Source: Candidatus Schekmanbacteria bacterium
GTDB taxonomy: Bacteria > SZUA-182
DNA: 34,917 nt
Direction: 5' to 3'
Assembly: GCA_016235675.1 (NCBI GenBank)
Contig: JACRJN010000017.1
Coordinates: 1-34,917 of the forward strand
Shown here: in pieces, positions 25,362-34,917 of the stretch
Numbering within the stretch: position 1 is the stretch's first letter
Layout: every line of letters begins with the position of its first letter
The notes under the pieces: generated by a model
The model's database searches: none
The model's input: only the letters and a program-made list of their open reading frames with translations
What the model was told of the DNA's origin: nothing
Program-made: the position numbers and the translations under genes

Positions 25362-27548
25362 TTAACCTCCCAAGCCCAGAAAACCGCCGCCCTGGTAGAT
25401 GATAAACGCTACCGTCCAGGCCAGGATCAGCCCATAAGCCGATGCGACGCCCCACCATTTCCAGGTGCCGAATTCATGTTTCATGGCGACTGCAACCACC
25501 ATACAAGGCATATAAATCAGGACAAACGCCATAAAGGCATAAGCGCTAAGCGGAGTAAAAGCCTTTTGCACCACATCCCGCAGACTGACCTGTTCTTCAC
25601 CCTCCTCTGCCGAGATACTGGCGATACCGAAGGTGGAGAAAACATTAGTTGCGGCATTTTGGCAGGCAGAGCCGAAAGAAACGATAATTTCCCGTAAATC
25701 TTCTTTTAAAGCGGGGATTTTTCCGGCTTCCTCTTTAATTTTAACGGCATAGATTTCCCCCATGGTGCCGACAATAATCTCTTTGGCGATGACTCCGGTA
25801 ATCAGCGCTGAAGCCGCCTCCCAGGTGCCGAAACCGAGCGGAGCCAAAACCGGGGCTATTACCTGACCAGCCTGGCCTAAAAAAGAGTCCCGTTTGTTTT
25901 TCACTCCCCAGGGCAGATTAAGCAAAAACCAGACCAGCACGGATACCGCCAGGATATAAGTTCCGGCTTTGACCAGGAAATGCTTGCCCTTTTCCCAGGT
26001 GTGAATCACCAGATTCTTCAGGGAGGGCATCCGATAAGGCGGCAACTCCATGATAAACATCGGGGCCTCACCTTTAAATAGTGTATGTTTAAAGATTATG
26101 CCCATCAGTACCGCTAACACAATACCCAAGACATATAATGACCAAAGCACGCTGCCTGATTGCCCAGGGAAAAAAGCGCCTACAAACAATACATAAACCG
26201 GTAACCTTGCCCCGCAGGACATGAGCGGAATCAGCAGGGCGGTAAGCGTTTTGTCCCGCTCGTTTTCCAGGGTTCTGGTGGCGTAAATGGCCGGGACGTT
26301 GCAGCCGAAGCCCAACAACAGCGGGATGAAGGATTTACCGTGCAGCCCCATGCTGTGCATCGCCCGATCCATGACAAAGGCCGCTCTGGCCATATAGCCG
26401 CTACCCTCCAGGAAGGTGATGAAGAAAAGCATGGCGAAGATCACCGGGACGAAGACCAGCACAAACCCCACTCCGGCGATAATTCCGTTGCAAACCAGCG
26501 AAACCATCCAATCGGAGGCGCCGATATAATTCAAACCGGCCTGTGCCCAGTGATTGAACGGCCCGGCGGTCATGGCGTCCACCCAATCGACAAAGGGGGT
26601 GGAAATATCGAAGGTCAGTTTGAATACCAGCCACATGGCGGCCAGGAAAATCGGGATACCCATAAACCGGTTAAGCATAATCCGATCTATTTTTTCGGTA
26701 AGCTCCGTTTTTTTGATATGCGGTCTTTTCAAGACTTCCTGAGTCAAACCCGCCGCCTGAGCATATCTGGCATCGGCCATTACCGATTCTATGTCATCTC
26801 CGTGCGCTTTTCTCAAATGGCGAACCTGCGTTTCTTGCAGGATTTCGCTGTTATCCAGATTGACCTCAGTCAAGACCTCGCTGTCGCTCTCCAGGATTTT
26901 GAAGGCCAGCCAGCGTTGGGGATATTTTTCCAGCAGTGCCGGATGATGCTTCTCCACCTGCTTTTCGATACAGGTTATGGCGTCCTCAATATCTTCATCA
27001 TATATCAAGGATTTGGGATGATGCTGTGCGGCTTTATCCACCGCTTCAATCGCCGCCTCAAGCAATTTATCCAGGCCGATCTTCTTGGTGGCGACGGTAG
27101 GGATAATGGTAATCCCGGACATGTCCGCCATGGCATGGACCTCGATTTTATAGCCCTTTTGCTCCATCTCGTCATAGATATTCAGGGCCAGCACCATCGG
27201 AAGATTCAACTCCATCAATTGCACGGTCAGGTATAAATTCCTTTCCAGGTTGGTGGAATCCACAACGTTTATAATTACATCCGGTCGCTCATGCACCAGA
27301 AAATCACGGGCGATGATTTCCTCCTGCGTATAGGGACTCAGGCTATAGGTGCCGGGCAGATCGACGAACTTGATTAAACGTCCGCGGTACTCGAAATCGG
27401 CCTCTTTTTTCTCCACGGTCACCCCCGGCCAATTTCCCACATGAAGCCTGGTGCCGGCGATGGCGTTGATTAAGGTGGATTTTCCGGCGTTGGGATTACC
27501 GGCCACCGCGATTATTATTTGTTTATTGGCTGTTTCCGGCCCGCTCAC
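25362..27548 (-). CDS. feoB: Ferrous iron transport protein B
   Basis: Main Fe2+ uptake permease with an N-terminal GTPase. The 728-aa product has G1 GNPNAGKST at 17-25, G3 DLPGTYSL at 63-70 and G4 NIYD at 123-126, then a linker and membrane gate domains with GFGCNVPAI, SCGARLPVY and SACQNAATNVF. Start is GTG 27548 with GGAGGAAG 6 nt upstream; it overlaps the feoA stop (GTGA). Full length. It should be repressed by iron through the DtxR-type regulator encoded divergently. Confidence 0.97.
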   Translation of the reverse strand: MSGPETANKQIIIAVAGNPNAGKSTLINAIAGTRLHVGNWPGVTVEKKEADFEYRGRLIKFVDLPGTYSLSPYTQEEIIARDFLVHERPDVIINVVDSTNLERNLYLTVQLMELNLPMVLALNIYDEMEQKGYKIEVHAMADMSGITIIPTVATKKIGLDKLLEAAIEAVDKAAQHHPKSLIYDEDIEDAITCIEKQVEKHHPALLEKYPQRWLAFKILESDSEVLTEVNLDNSEILQETQVRHLRKAHGDDIESVMADARYAQAAGLTQEVLKRPHIKKTELTEKIDRIMLNRFMGIPIFLAAMWLVFKLTFDISTPFVDWVDAMTAGPFNHWAQAGLNYIGASDWMVSLVCNGIIAGVGFVLVFVPVIFAMLFFITFLEGSGYMARAAFVMDRAMHSMGLHGKSFIPLLLGFGCNVPAIYATRTLENERDKTLTALLIPLMSCGARLPVYVLFVGAFFPGQSGSVLWSLYVLGIVLAVLMGIIFKHTLFKGEAPMFIMELPPYRMPSLKNLVIHTWEKGKHFLVKAGTYILAVSVLVWFLLNLPWGVKNKRDSFLGQAGQVIAPVLAPLGFGTWEAASALITGVIAKEIIVGTMGEIYAVKIKEEAGKIPALKEDLREIIVSFGSACQNAATNVFSTFGIASISAEEGEEQVSLRDVVQKAFTPLSAYAFMAFVLIYMPCMVVAVAMKHEFGTWKWWGVASAYGLILAWTVAFIIYQGGGFLGLGG

Positions 27549-27772
27549 TTAACTTCCTCCACCATAATTCCCTCCGCCTCTTTCTTGCGAAAAGAGAGGT
27601 TGTAATTCTTAATGACAATTTCAATCGGATCTCCCAAAGGGGCGATCTTCACTACCTTGATTTCTTCCCCCACCAGCACGCCCATATCCATTAATCTTCT
27701 TTTCAAAGGGCCAATCGCCCCGATTTGGGTTATCCTGCCCTTTTGTCCCGGTTTTAACGATGAAAGATTCAT
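27545..27772 (-). CDS. feoA: Ferrous iron transport protein A (second FeoA)
   Basis: A 75-aa SH3-like protein: LSSLKPGQKGRITQIGAIGPLKRRLMDMGVLVG is the standard FeoA opening. FeoA is a cytoplasmic partner of FeoB. SD AAGGAG is 5 nt upstream. It overlaps both the preceding FeoA-like gene and feoB by 4 nt. Confidence 0.93.
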   Translation of the reverse strand: MNLSSLKPGQKGRITQIGAIGPLKRRLMDMGVLVGEEIKVVKIAPLGDPIEIVIKNYNLSFRKKEAEGIMVEEVK

Positions 27773-28029
27773 ATGTGCTCCTTTTTAACCAAAATTTTCA
27801 TAGCCAGACTTCTGGCAACCGCGATTCTGGTATTATCCACTTTGACCAATAGCGGCCCTTGCCCTTGATTACTCAACATCTCCACAATTTTCCCAATCCG
27901 CAACCCCATATTTTCTATCCGGGAGCAAAGCTCATCTTTGACATTGAGACATTGATTTATGACCCCTTTTTGCTGAATCCCGATTACTTCTCCCTTTTCA
28001 CCGATACTTAATAACCCAAGAGATAACAT
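27769..28029 (-). CDS. FeoA-domain protein (first of two)
   Basis: An 86-aa FeoA/SH3-like protein: LLSIGEKGEVIGIQQKG, then SRIENMGLRIGKIVEMLSNQGQGPLLVKVDNTRIAVARSLAMKILV. It differs from the second FeoA by an insertion with a lone Cys pair (QCLNVKDELC). GGAGG lies 7 nt before ATG 28029. As first gene of the feo operon it lies directly behind the metal-regulated promoter. Confidence 0.9.
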   Translation of the reverse strand: MLSLGLLSIGEKGEVIGIQQKGVINQCLNVKDELCSRIENMGLRIGKIVEMLSNQGQGPLLVKVDNTRIAVARSLAMKILVKKEHI

Positions 28030-28094
28030 TTTTATACCTCCATAAAAGTGTTTATTAATCTTTTTATGTTTAGACTTCGAAAAACCGTCGTAGT

Positions 28095-28148
28095 CGTAGT
28101 CCCAGCCCTTTAGGGCTGAATCTCCGGGGCTAAAGCCCCGGCACTACG
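28095..28148. repeat. CGTAGTCCC/GGGGCTAAAGCCCCG palindrome, second copy
   Basis: CGTAGTCCCAGCCCTTTAGG ... GGGGCTAAAGCCCCGGCACTACG; a close copy of 1994-2050. It lies in the 5' leader of the feo operon, between promoter and first FeoA gene. Confidence 0.85.
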
Positions 28149-28177
28149 GCTATGTTTAGACTGCGCAAGATTATTAA

Positions 28178-28191
28178 TTAGTATATACTAA
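28178..28191. promoter_or_regulatory. Putative metal-regulator operator 1
   Basis: TTAGTATATACTAA, a perfect 14-bp palindrome, located just downstream of the feo -10 box over the likely start of transcription. Size and symmetry suit a DtxR/MntR dimer. A second similar site lies 22 bp away, two turns of the helix. Confidence 0.6.
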
Positions 28192-28192
28192 T

Positions 28193-28221
28193 ATCATACA
28201 TAGTCTTTACTAATATGTCAA
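28193..28221 (-). promoter_or_regulatory. feo operon promoter
   Basis: On the minus strand, TTGACA (28216-28221), 17-bp spacer, TATGAT (28193-28198). Near-perfect consensus. Transcription would begin around 28186, within operator 1, with operator 2 in the spacer: repressor binding would block RNA polymerase directly. Confidence 0.8.
28200..28213. promoter_or_regulatory. Putative metal-regulator operator 2
   Basis: ATAGTCTTTACTAA matches operator 1 at 11 of 14 positions and keeps the outer TAG/ACTAA symmetry. It lies between the -35 and -10 boxes of the feo promoter. Confidence 0.5.
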
Positions 28222-28252
28222 GAAAAAAATTTATGTGCAAAATATTGAGGTC

Positions 28253-28281
28253 TTGACCCTGCAAGCAAACCCTGTTAGACT
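28253..28281 (+). promoter_or_regulatory. Promoter of the DtxR-type regulator gene
   Basis: TTGACC (28253-28258), 17-bp spacer, TAGACT (28276-28281). Transcription would start near 28288, which leaves too little leader for the upstream GTG at 28291 and supports ATG 28330 as the start. The operators are about 40 bp upstream. Confidence 0.55.
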
Positions 28282-28329
28282 AAGTTCGGGGTGTTGGCTG
28301 ACATCAATATTTTATTGGAAATTAAGACC

Positions 28330-28992
28330 ATGGAAAAGACCGTTGAAATCGGGATAACCTCGCAAGGGGAAGAATATTTGGAAGCCGTATGCCGAATTCG
28401 GGAGCGGGGTATACAGGTGACCGCAACGGAATTGGCACAATCCCTTAATCTGGCGCCGCCCTCTGTTTTGGGTATGCTCAAAAGGTTGGAAGAGCAGGGC
28501 ATGTTGTCTTATTCCCGGCAAAAAGGGGTGCTTTTGACGGAAAAGGGGGAACTACATGCCCATAACCTGCGCCGCCGTCATCGTCTGGCGGAGCGACTTT
28601 TGACCGATCTTCTGGGAATGCCCTGGGAGCGCGCCCACGAAGTGGCTTGCCGTTTTGAGCATATTATCGATGACGAGGTGGAAAAATACCTGTTAGAAGC
28701 GTTGCATTATCCGCACACCTGCCCTCACGGTAACCCCATCGATACCCAAGATCAGGAAATTTACCAGCCGCTGACCACTTTATCTGTAGGCCAAACCGGT
28801 TATTTGAGAAGAATCCTGGATGAATCCTCTGAAACCCTGAATTATCTGCATGGCATGAGTTTGATTCCGGGCGCCGAAGTTACCGTCTATGCCGTTGCCC
28901 CCTCTGACGGCCCGCTTACTGTTGATGTGGCGGGCAACCGCTTTGCCATCTCCAGGGTGATGGCGGGGCAGTTATTGGTGGAACGCAAATAG
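28330..28992 (+). CDS. DtxR/MntR-family metal-dependent transcriptional regulator
   Basis: A 220-aa regulator. The N-terminal winged helix starts at ITSQGEEYLEAVCRI, with recognition region TELAQSLNLAPPSVLGMLKRLEEQGML. The dimerisation and metal-binding domain has HRLAERLLTDLLGM and HEVACRFEHIID (H, C/E and H ligands typical of the family) and CPHGNP. A C-terminal FeoA/SH3-like domain runs from about 145 to the end. It should bind Fe2+ or Mn2+ and repress feo. In-frame GTG 28291 is an alternative start. Its stop codon directly abuts a GGCTTGAGG repeat. Confidence 0.92.
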   Translation: MEKTVEIGITSQGEEYLEAVCRIRERGIQVTATELAQSLNLAPPSVLGMLKRLEEQGMLSYSRQKGVLLTEKGELHAHNLRRRHRLAERLLTDLLGMPWERAHEVACRFEHIIDDEVEKYLLEALHYPHTCPHGNPIDTQDQEIYQPLTTLSVGQTGYLRRILDESSETLNYLHGMSLIPGAEVTVYAVAPSDGPLTVDVAGNRFAISRVMAGQLLVERK

Positions 28993-31710: not shown

Positions 31711-31785
31711 ATGTTGAGAGCGGACAGCCGATTTTACCTGATTGAACGCAACTTGGTATGGAAAGAGGGAACGCCTGAAAAATGA
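31711..31785 (+). CDS. Possible 24-aa leader peptide upstream of the Cys-rich protein
   Basis: ATG 31711 has GGGG 6 nt upstream and encodes MLRADSRFYLIERNLVWKEG TPEK, ending in TGA that overlaps the ATG of the next gene (ATGA). It begins 10 bp after the YifB stop. It may be a small leader peptide for translational coupling. No homology is known to me, and it may be chance. Confidence 0.3.
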   Translation: MLRADSRFYLIERNLVWKEGTPEK

Positions 31786-34133
31786 GTGTCGCCGGAGGAA
31801 GAATCAAAATAACCGCGTTACTAATTCTGGCCGGGGGCTGGCCGGGGCTGGCGCTGGCCTGTGGCGGGGAAGATTGTCTCTACGACCGGTGTGCCTGTAC
31901 GGTGGGGTTGTCGGCAAACGAGACGAATACCTGTAACTGCGGGAAAATTTGTATTCTACACCCGACCGGCCCGGATAATCCCGGATGTAAAGGTAGTTCC
32001 CCTTGTGGATGCCGGTACAACAAGTCCGCTATGGGGGGATGTGTTTGCGGAGTACATTGCGGCACAGCCGAAAGTCAATGCGTACATACCTCAAAGCCTG
32101 AAGGGGAAAAGACCGCCTGTAACTGCGGTTACGAGTATTGCCTCTGCGGCAAAACCTGTTCCGAGCAACACAATATATGTCAGGCGGCGGATCAATGCCG
32201 TTGGCAAGGCAAAGAACCGTGGCTTGCCGTGAACAGGCTTAATCCCATTCCTGAGGAGTTTTTCTCAAATTATCAAAGGGGTCTCTCCTCTTTAGCGGGG
32301 CAAAATTTGCCCCAAGCCGTTTCCTGGCTGGGAAAAGCCGTCGACCCCCGATATATCGATTGCTATGCTGCAAGATTAAGCGACCTGGCCTACAAAGATT
32401 TCTTCCCGCGCCGCGAATTGGGAATCGCCTTCTACCGGGCGGGAAACTACCGCAAAGCCATTCAGTTATTGGAAGCCTCCCTGGAAGCCGAAGAAACCGC
32501 CAAAGCCCAACATTATCTTAACCTGGCCAGGCTTAAATTTTTGGAAGAAACTCAGTCCGATCAAAACGTTCCGGAAATCATGCTGAAATTTCCGGTGGGG
32601 ATAAATTCCGATCCCTTCACGGCAACCATAATGGGAACTGTCACGGATGACCAATTTGTCGCTAAAATAGCCATTAACGGGGAAAATGTTCCCCTGTGGT
32701 TATCCAGTAAAACGGTTGAACTAAATGAAACAATACCCCTGACCAAAGGGCTAAATGAGTTTACTGTTTCCGTTACCGATTTAACCGGCAAAACCTCCCA
32801 TAAAAATTTTTCTGTTTATAGCGACGCCGACGGCCCCCTCATAAGTATAAATTATCAAGTATTGGAAGAAACATTCATCGGCAAAAAGATTCTGATTACC
32901 GGCAGCGTGAGCGACGATCTTGAAGTTCAGGAGATATTAATCCAGGGAAATCCCTTGTCACTACCCCAGGGGGAAGAAGTAAACATTAACCAGACTATAA
33001 CCTTATCCGTAATAAAAAACTCTATCACTATTCAGGCCAAGGACATTTTAGGAAATACAACTTCCGGGGAAGTGAGTCTCGACGAAGCCAAAACGGTTTT
33101 AAATACTGCACAATGGGTTGATTCCGGTCAAGTGGCCTATGATGTGGATTTATATAAATCCGGCTCCAATTTTCCGCCCGTTATTGAACTTAAAGACCTG
33201 GCTGATCAACAGACCTTCTTTGTGGACAGTATCTATATTGAGGGCCAGGTAAAATCAGGCGCGGACATTGTTTCCCTGTCGCTTAACAATGAATCATTTG
33301 TAAGTAAACGGGGAAGATTCGTCTTCTTCAACCGTGTGCTGAAATTGAAAGAGGGCGAGAACAAAATCATAGTAAAGGCTACAGATAGCGGGGGGAACAG
33401 CTCCCGCAAAGAGATTAAAGTTTACCGGAAAATCCCGCGGGTTAAAACCATCGGTTCCAGAATGTGCATCAGCATACCGCCTTTCAGACAAAAAGGGCTG
33501 GAGTCTTCGCTGCAAGATGTAATCTACGACAAATTAATCGCCGCCTTTATTAATCAGCAGCGTTTTAACCTGGTGGAAAGAGCCAGGTTAGAGGAAATAT
33601 TGCTGGAACAAAAACTGAGCCGGACGGAACTGGTCAAACAATCGGCGGTAATGAAACTAGGCCGGATAGTCGCCGCCGACGCGGTAATGATTGGGACGGT
33701 GTATGAATCGGAACAATCCATCGAAATTTACGCCCGCCTGATCGATACCGATACCGGCGTCATCATCGAAGCGAAAGATGTTTGGAGCGAAGATAAAAGT
33801 CAGGAAAAGATAAATCTGCTAACCGAGGGTTTAGCCCTCAAATTTAAGAGTAGTTTTCCCCTGGTTGAAGGCTTGATTGTCAACCGCAGCCGGGATAACG
33901 TTATGCAGGATTTGGGTGTTCAAATGGGGATGAAGCCTTACCGCAAGTTACTGGTTTACCGGGAAGATGAACCGGTAGTTCACCCGGTTACCCGACAAAA
34001 CCTGGGAAGCGATTCGGAAGAACTGGGGGAAGTAATGGTAAAAAAGGTGTTTAGTAATATTTCGCGGGGGGATATTTTAAGGGAAAATGCCGATAAAAAA
34101 ATTGAAGCCAAGGATAAAGTGATAGCCAAATAA
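31782..34133 (+). CDS. Secreted protein: Cys-rich CxCGxxC repeats, TPR-like, Ig-like and CsgG-like domains
   Basis: A 783-aa exported protein. Residues 1-26 are a signal peptide (LLILAGGWPGLALA|C). Residues 27-139 hold 21 cysteines with CNCGKIC (51-57), CVCGVHC (87-93), CNCGYEYC (113-120) and CLCGKTC (120-126), spaced about 33-36 residues, which suggests metal-binding or disulfide-linked repeats. Residues 160-255 look like TPR helices. About 265-550 are beta-rich repeats with EGxNxFTVxVTDxxG patterns, like the Ig-like domains of surface proteins. Residues 560-680 match the CsgG/FlgT-like fold (RFNLVERARLEEILLEQ, GRIVAADAVMIGTV, IYARLIDTDTGVI). LALAC is a poor lipobox, so a lipoprotein is possible but not clear. 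The combination is not known to me. Confidence 0.7.
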   Translation: MSVAGGRIKITALLILAGGWPGLALACGGEDCLYDRCACTVGLSANETNTCNCGKICILHPTGPDNPGCKGSSPCGCRYNKSAMGGCVCGVHCGTAESQCVHTSKPEGEKTACNCGYEYCLCGKTCSEQHNICQAADQCRWQGKEPWLAVNRLNPIPEEFFSNYQRGLSSLAGQNLPQAVSWLGKAVDPRYIDCYAARLSDLAYKDFFPRRELGIAFYRAGNYRKAIQLLEASLEAEETAKAQHYLNLARLKFLEETQSDQNVPEIMLKFPVGINSDPFTATIMGTVTDDQFVAKIAINGENVPLWLSSKTVELNETIPLTKGLNEFTVSVTDLTGKTSHKNFSVYSDADGPLISINYQVLEETFIGKKILITGSVSDDLEVQEILIQGNPLSLPQGEEVNINQTITLSVIKNSITIQAKDILGNTTSGEVSLDEAKTVLNTAQWVDSGQVAYDVDLYKSGSNFPPVIELKDLADQQTFFVDSIYIEGQVKSGADIVSLSLNNESFVSKRGRFVFFNRVLKLKEGENKIIVKATDSGGNSSRKEIKVYRKIPRVKTIGSRMCISIPPFRQKGLESSLQDVIYDKLIAAFINQQRFNLVERARLEEILLEQKLSRTELVKQSAVMKLGRIVAADAVMIGTVYESEQSIEIYARLIDTDTGVIIEAKDVWSEDKSQEKINLLTEGLALKFKSSFPLVEGLIVNRSRDNVMQDLGVQMGMKPYRKLLVYREDEPVVHPVTRQNLGSDSEELGEVMVKKVFSNISRGDILRENADKKIEAKDKVIAK

Positions 34134-34234: not shown

Positions 34235-34342
34235 ATACTGTTCACTTAACGTAGCGCAGACCTTTAGGTCTGCTCCTTCGTTCCCGCCAAAGCCACCCCG
34301 AAAGCAGGGCTAAAGCCCTGCGCTACGTTAAGTGAACAGTAT
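34235..34342. repeat. 108-bp palindrome with exact 25-bp arms
   Basis: ATACTGTTCACTTAACGTAG... at the left is matched exactly by ...CTACGTTAAGTGAACAGTAT at the right; the stem continues into CAGACCTTTAGGTCTG and CAGGGCTAAAGCCCTG hairpins. A half copy (GCAGACCTGAAGGTCTGC) is at about 34422. It begins about 100 bp after the Cys-rich gene. Confidence 0.9.
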
Positions 34343-34535
34343 TGGGACTAAAACCTTGCCTCGACAGATCTTATTGAATACTCTTTTCAAACCCGACATC
34401 TATGTTAATCGTGCATGAGAGGCAGACCTGAAGGTCTGCGCTATGACAATAAATTTACCGGATCAAACGCAAATTGGTATAGGAATGTAAGCAGTTGTAG
34501 TTATTTTGTTCGTACCCGTATTTAAAACAAATACC

Positions 34536-34646
34536 TTGATTTGACATAACAATTGAGCTATATTTTGTGGCAGGAGAAAAGGGGTGAAACAAGAACTCTT
34601 TTTTGGGTCTTTCGGCTTGTCCTCACGCCGAAACAATCAACGGTAA
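34536..34646 (+). pseudogene. Possible gene remnant: promoter, RBS and start codon running into a palindrome
   Basis: TTGATT (34536-34541), 17-bp spacer, TATATT (34559-34564), then AGGAG and GTG 34584 with correct spacing. The reading frame is only 20 codons (MKQELFFGSFGLSSRRNNQR) and enters the repeat at 34602 after six codons. It looks like the 5' end of a gene cut off by a repeat, but chance cannot be excluded. Confidence 0.3.
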
Positions 34647-34694
34647 CGTTCCTCTGAAAAACTTTCGGCTTGAGGACAAGCCGAAAGACCCAAA
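34602..34694. repeat. TTTGGGTCTTTCGGCTTG palindrome with exact 24-bp arms
   Basis: A 93-bp element of the TTTCGG family. TTTGGGTCTTTCGGCTTGTC... at the left is exactly complementary to ...GACAAGCCGAAAGACCCAAA at the right. A half copy of the CGCAGAGACGC repeat follows (34699-34732), and AATCCCCCTTAATCCCCC with a CTTTGCTAAAGGGG hairpin lies at 34876-34909. The interval 34134-34917 contains no clear gene. Confidence 0.9.
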
Positions 34695-34917
34695 TATTCT
34701 CTTTGCGCCCTTTGCGTCTCTGCGGTGAAAAAATCTTAGAATATATCCGTAAATAACTTTTCCCTCTTTGGCAAATAGGGGTTGGGGAGATTTTCAAATT
34801 GAATCTAACCTTAAGTAATTATTCGAACACGACATATTACCAAAAGATTAAATTCTTTATGGAAATTACAATTTGCAAATCCCCCTTAATCCCCCTTTGC
34901 TAAAGGGGAAACCAAAG

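Follow-up and report, generated by a model that had tools for sequence, protein, structure and literature searches.

The open reading frame (ORF) at positions 31782-34133 of the plus strand encodes a protein of 783 residues in which a conserved envelope architecture carries a Cys-rich N-terminal addition. The window, the whole stretch of 34,917 nucleotides analyzed here, is contig C77 of a MAG of 2.98 Mb (190 contigs, about 90% complete). The protein consists, in order, of a signal peptide, a putative anchor Cys, a Cys-rich stalk, a TPR domain, three Ig-like domains and, at the C-terminus, a FlgT/LpoB-type domain followed by a FlgT_C-like one. We tentatively consider that it is best explained as a lipid-anchored envelope adaptor with a lineage-private, thiol-rich stalk close to the membrane, the stalk being more likely metal-binding than disulfide-bonded. 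Since the Cys segment is a private add-on to a conserved protein, forms with and without it can be compared directly.

Genomic Context and Export

The gene, hereafter called the Cys gene, has ComM as its upstream neighbor and is followed by the contig end 784 bp on its 3' side. Immediately 5' of it is a 24-codon ORF (MLRADSRFYLIERNLVWKEGTPEK; 31711-31785), whose TGA stop shares bases with the start ATG of the Cys gene (ATGA), a pattern as in translational coupling. At 25362-28992, the minus-strand genes feoB and feoA lie opposite a DtxR-type repressor that has a FeoA domain of its own; these iron genes were considered as a context for the Cys gene and then dropped, because two unrelated genes intervene.

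The signal peptide covers residues 1-26 (31782-31859, plus strand) and ends in GLALA just ahead of C27. According to the PROSITE PS51257-type lipobox pattern, which the sequence fits, C27 would be the site of lipidation; the N-terminus of the mature protein would then be fixed to a membrane, and 20 Cys residues would lie between the anchor and the TPR domain. The Ala at position -3 and the Leu at position -2 are not the commonest lipobox residues, the strict pattern is found in just 39 of 88 sequences of relatives, and cleavage by signal peptidase I at an ordinary site (between ALA and C) is a possible alternative to the lipobox. The protein is exported and probably lipid-anchored in the envelope, in agreement with the preliminary description, which had depicted an exported protein of several parts, possibly of the envelope, combining a CsgG-like part with a Cys-rich N-terminal region.

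Conserved Domains

An AlphaFold2 model built on a family alignment of 41 sequences has pLDDT values above 90 for most of residues 158-783 and of about 30 for residues 1-153. The part shared with the family begins, at about residue 158, with a TPR-like helical domain (residues 158-257; 32253-32552, plus strand) that gives weak Pfam TPR matches, is modeled with pLDDT mostly above 90 and superimposes on the designed TPR protein 1na3 with a Z of 14.5 over 84 residues. Three Ig-like beta-sandwich domains follow at about residues 263-347, 350-432 and 463-550 (32568-33431, plus strand), seen both in the model and in Pfam matches to Glucodextran_B (E 5e-15, in three stretches) and Big_13. The remainder is formed by a soluble domain of the FlgT-middle/LpoB/TolB-N/GNA1162/PelC/CsgG type (residues 555-694; 33444-33863, plus strand) and a C-terminal FlgT_C-like beta domain (residues 695-783; 33864-34130, plus strand). 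Residues 555-783 match Pfam CsgG with E 1e-10, and the matches to CsgG, FlgO and LpoB lie at about residues 579-666. Pfam and the confident model of residues 158-783 thereby confirm the TPR-like, Ig-like and CsgG-like parts that had been recognized initially.

Structural comparison of residues 555-694 with VIA-align returned Z values of 13.4 for FlgT, 13.3 for GNA1162 (rmsd 1.8 over 110 residues), 13.1 for PelC, 12.9 for TolB, 12.0 for LpoB and 9.7 for CsgG. The FlgT structure 3w1e aligns over residues 555-782, which thus contain the pair of middle and C-terminal folds seen in FlgT, but with an rmsd of 15, probably because the two domains are placed differently. The protein resembles FlgT (3w1e), LpoB (4q6l), GNA1162 (4hrv), PelC (5t0z) and the N-domain of TolB (1crz) in the fold of residues 555-694 and in envelope location, and with FlgT the similarity also covers the C-terminal domain; it differs from all of them in that the fold is here fused to a TPR, three Ig domains and a Cys-rich stalk, with sequence identities of 10-22%. 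No genes related to the flagellar H/T ring, PBP1B activation or Tol-Pal were seen adjoining the Cys gene.

The pore of CsgG is made of two transmembrane beta-hairpins per protomer, which are inserted into the core fold. A CsgG-type core is present in our protein, as indicated by the Pfam match, which falls in the N-terminal half of CsgG (PF03783, about 34-99 of 210), and by the alignment with 4uv2, which covers 120 of its 218 residues. However, in the model (pLDDT above 90 in this part) only 4-5 residues separate the core strands 634-642, 647-655 and 661-669 from each other, and loops of this length are too short for transmembrane hairpins. The secretion-channel role that the preliminary description mentioned for CsgG-like proteins is therefore unsupported; curli-type neighbors are missing as well, the closest folds being those of FlgT, GNA1162, PelC, TolB and LpoB. 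(FlgT_C-like domains resembling the C-terminus of our protein are also present in other exported proteins, L002 [G000:C138] and L017, the former having this domain fused to apparent FG-GAP-type repeats).

Relatives of the Protein

The family alignment was scanned against 84,980 species genomes and 102 relatives were obtained, of which the best 80 were kept. These come from Desulfobacterota, Nitrospirota, Schekmanbacteria and other phyla, with identities of 24-39% among those aligned (the best being 39% over residues 158-783). Homology extends over the full length of residues 158-783, and nearly all matches start at about residue 158. The family is one of widespread, uncharacterized lipoproteins. 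Ahead of the shared part, the relatives begin with a hydrophobic signal, which is in most cases followed by a Cys, and then have a short linker (for example KDGKEYGVTxGxFRxRWW); none of about 80 inspected has a Cys-rich N-terminus, and consequently the Cys region is not a known domain regularly joined to CsgG. Any 114 residues of the relatives contain at most 8 Cys (median 3), and the closest relatives within the class, which were retrieved by whole-genome search, lack the Cys segment as well. The segment occupies the position of the relatives' anchor linker, and as judged from these sequences the short linker between anchor and TPR is replaced by it in this bacterium alone.

The Cys-Rich Segment

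The Cys-rich segment extends from residue 27 to residue 139 (31860-32198, plus strand) and contains 21 Cys in 113 residues, as had been counted previously, namely the putatively lipidated C27 and 20 others; outside it the protein has just two, at 194 and 562. The segment can be divided into three units, of which unit 1 (residues 37-74; 31890-32003, plus strand) and unit 2 (residues 75-112; 32004-32117, plus strand) follow the order CxC...CxCGxxC...C, and the shorter unit 3 (residues 113-139; 32118-32198, plus strand) the order CxC(G)...CxCGxxC...C. The CxC motifs at 37, 75 and 113 are in an exact 38-residue register, and each unit has a lone Cys after CxCGxxC, at 69, 100 and 133. Four copies of CxCGxxC or close variants at spacings of 33-36 had been reported; three exact copies, at 51, 87 and 120, do have spacings of 36 and 33, whereas the fourth is the variant CNCGYEYC, whose position at 113 is just 7 residues ahead of the copy at 120. 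Neither heme (CxxCH) nor ferredoxin motifs were found in the sequence.

Among 20,000 composition shuffles, three CxCGxxC motifs arise with a P of about 5e-5; for three CxC in 38-residue register, P is about 5e-4. The repeat signal resides in the spacing of the Cys residues, since local alignment among the three units scores above full shuffles (P 0.011) but not above shuffles in which Cys is fixed (P 0.31). At the DNA level no tandem duplication of the units was found, just repeats of 12-19 nt, a size expected by chance.

Searches for the segment elsewhere gave no match in Pfam or NCBIfam, only chance matches to lectin-like receptors among PDB sequences (E 0.35), no credible match in about 390 genomes and none in the phages, plasmids or viral contigs searched. 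The genome matches with E from 4e-4 to 0.01 are in unrelated frames; two that were inspected along their length had no credible gene, and most others have stops. As far as searched, the segment appears to be private to this genome.

Metallothioneins are cytoplasmic proteins of about 50 residues. The segment shares with bacterial metallothioneins of the SmtA/PmtA type (PF02069; 1jjd, 6gv7) a high content of Cys and the presence of CxC motifs, and the order CxC...CxxxC...H of unit 1 is loosely similar, but our protein is exported and has three units. Homology with PF02069 was rejected: the Pfam search of the Cys protein gave no match to this family at E<=10, and when a profile built for the analysis was run with filters off, the score of the Cys region was equaled or exceeded by 42 of 500 full shuffles and by 167 of 500 shuffles keeping the Cys in place. 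The resemblance to bacterial metallothionein suggested in the preliminary description is therefore no better than that of shuffled sequences.

Possible Metal Binding or Disulfides, and Other Readings

The Cys-rich part could be a misjoined or frameshifted piece, given that it is present in one MAG only, that frame +1 is also open across it (31861-32232) and that its synonymous codon usage is neutral, hence uninformative. Yet signal peptide, Cys part and TPR part are read in a single continuous frame of 783 codons, and when codons were replaced by synonyms so as to preserve the Cys protein, frame +1 stayed open in 47% of the trials, whereas with the +1 protein preserved instead, the Cys frame stayed open in 0.2% of 3,000 trials, with at most 19 Cys. 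Since a coding Cys frame can be expected to leave frame +1 open and the reverse fails, the Cys frame accounts for frame +1, and these results show that the Cys frame is the coding frame. An artefact of assembly or frame is thus very improbable, the single MAG leaving a small residual chance of an assembly fault. Another reading, which we regard as unlikely, is that of a recently gained or expanded N-terminal segment that serves no specific function and is tolerated since conservation of the anchor linker is poor. It would agree with the absence of the segment from all relatives and everything else searched, with units alike in their Cys positions only and with the lack of a predicted fold (pLDDT of about 30 in the full model and of 42, unusable, for the segment modeled alone); nevertheless, the regularity of the Cys spacing exceeds that of shuffles, and the presence of as many as 21 Cys in an exported protein suggests that selection has acted.

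A stronger competitor, possible though still doubtful, is that the 20 Cys other than the anchor pair with each other in a compact, protease-resistant spacer that would hold the TPR/Ig/LpoB-like part off the membrane without any metal. The extracytoplasmic location, the even count of Cys that remains if C27 carries the lipid, the correspondence in position with the anchor linker of the relatives and an exported DsbA-like protein encoded in the same genome are all consistent with disulfides. Against them stand the high CxC content, which is commoner in metal clusters than in disulfide folds, and the failure to find DsbB or VKOR, a weak absence in a genome about 90% complete. Because neither DsbB nor VKOR was found, binding of soft metals by thiolates is preferred to a disulfide rod, and we infer that metal-thiolate binding is the more likely of the two, being slightly favored. 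Overall, the analysis supports an envelope scaffold with a thiol-rich stalk, and the metal-binding scaffold initially envisaged is possible. The DsbA-like protein (L117:1459-2373, contig C3) has an N-terminal CVCGCN...C motif that is reminiscent of cytochrome-c-maturation proteins.

Recurrent CHAT/Sigma/Barrel Loci and Possible Function

The genes surrounding the family (L037-L116, 80 loci) recur in several phyla as a locus with an ECF-type sigma factor, an anti-sigma factor, a CHAT-TM-(TPR)-CsgG/FlgT_C protein, the TPR-Ig-CsgG lipoprotein and FadL/PorV-like barrels. Sigma, anti-sigma and CHAT genes adjoin the family gene on one strand in 25 of the 80 loci, a neighbor with a FadL/PorV signature is present in 42, and the family gene stands alone in 13. 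(The signature count of 42 replaces a raw barrel count of 60 loci, in which the single-linkage cluster 'B' mixed barrels with other proteins). A cultured relative that carries the locus is Desulfamplus magnetovallimortis. The CHAT proteins show the order CHAT, membrane helix (predicted from hydropathy in 44 of 52) and then CsgG, sometimes followed by FlgT_C, as in the Pfam match of the CHAT partner in L068. A search of the literature on CHAT with CsgG, PorV, anti-sigma or LpoB found no description of such a gene set. The family apparently marks an undescribed envelope system in many Desulfobacterota, Nitrospirota and other MAGs, composed of a CHAT protease-like protein crossing the inner membrane, a lipoprotein with the same LpoB/CsgG-type domain, a FadL-like barrel and a sigma/anti-sigma pair.

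In the genome under study, the genes for sigma, an anti-sigma-like protein and a CHAT-TM-TPR-CsgG protein are located at the end of contig C3 (L137:1660-5879), hence the Cys gene on contig C77 does not adjoin its presumed partners. As expected for a CHAT protease, the CHAT protein (L137:3633-5879) contains the motifs HYAGH and NACQSG; no Pfam match was obtained for the anti-sigma-like protein, which is named by position and family; and no close FadL/PorV partner was found in this genome, weak matches only. The presumed partner shares the order of CHAT, membrane helix and TPR with its nearest published analogue, HetF of Anabaena, a divisome protein that interacts with FtsI (PMC8406250), from which it differs in ending with a CsgG/LpoB-like domain and in being encoded with sigma and anti-sigma genes. 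The combination of a CHAT protease fold with TPR is also shared with the TPR-CHAT protein of Craspase (type III-E CRISPR; PMC9935389); in contrast, the CHAT protein here is membrane-spanning and has different neighbors, with no CRISPR genes in the stretches read.

These observations may be combined in the working model that we tentatively regard as the most likely. After export to the periplasm, the protein would be lipidated at C27 and presumably anchored in the outer membrane, from where it could span the periplasm and contact the CHAT protein of the inner membrane through the latter's LpoB-like domain, the two acting in envelope signaling or assembly. The 113-residue stalk, with its 20 further Cys in three units, would bind soft metal ions via thiolates. 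A bolder version, which we consider improbable, is that of a lipid-anchored extracytoplasmic metal-thiolate module, which would represent a sequence type new to science and have no kinship with known metallothioneins. Placed at the outer membrane, this module would sense soft metals or buffer them and would relay the signal via the TPR/Ig/LpoB-like domains to the membrane-spanning CHAT protease and the sigma/anti-sigma pair.

A short inverted repeat (around TTCGGCTTGAGGACAAGCCGAAA) is of the same kind in two intergenic stretches, at 34240-34917 of the window and at the end of contig C3 (L137:5940-6309); such repeats at the ends of both contigs may be the cause of the breaks there.
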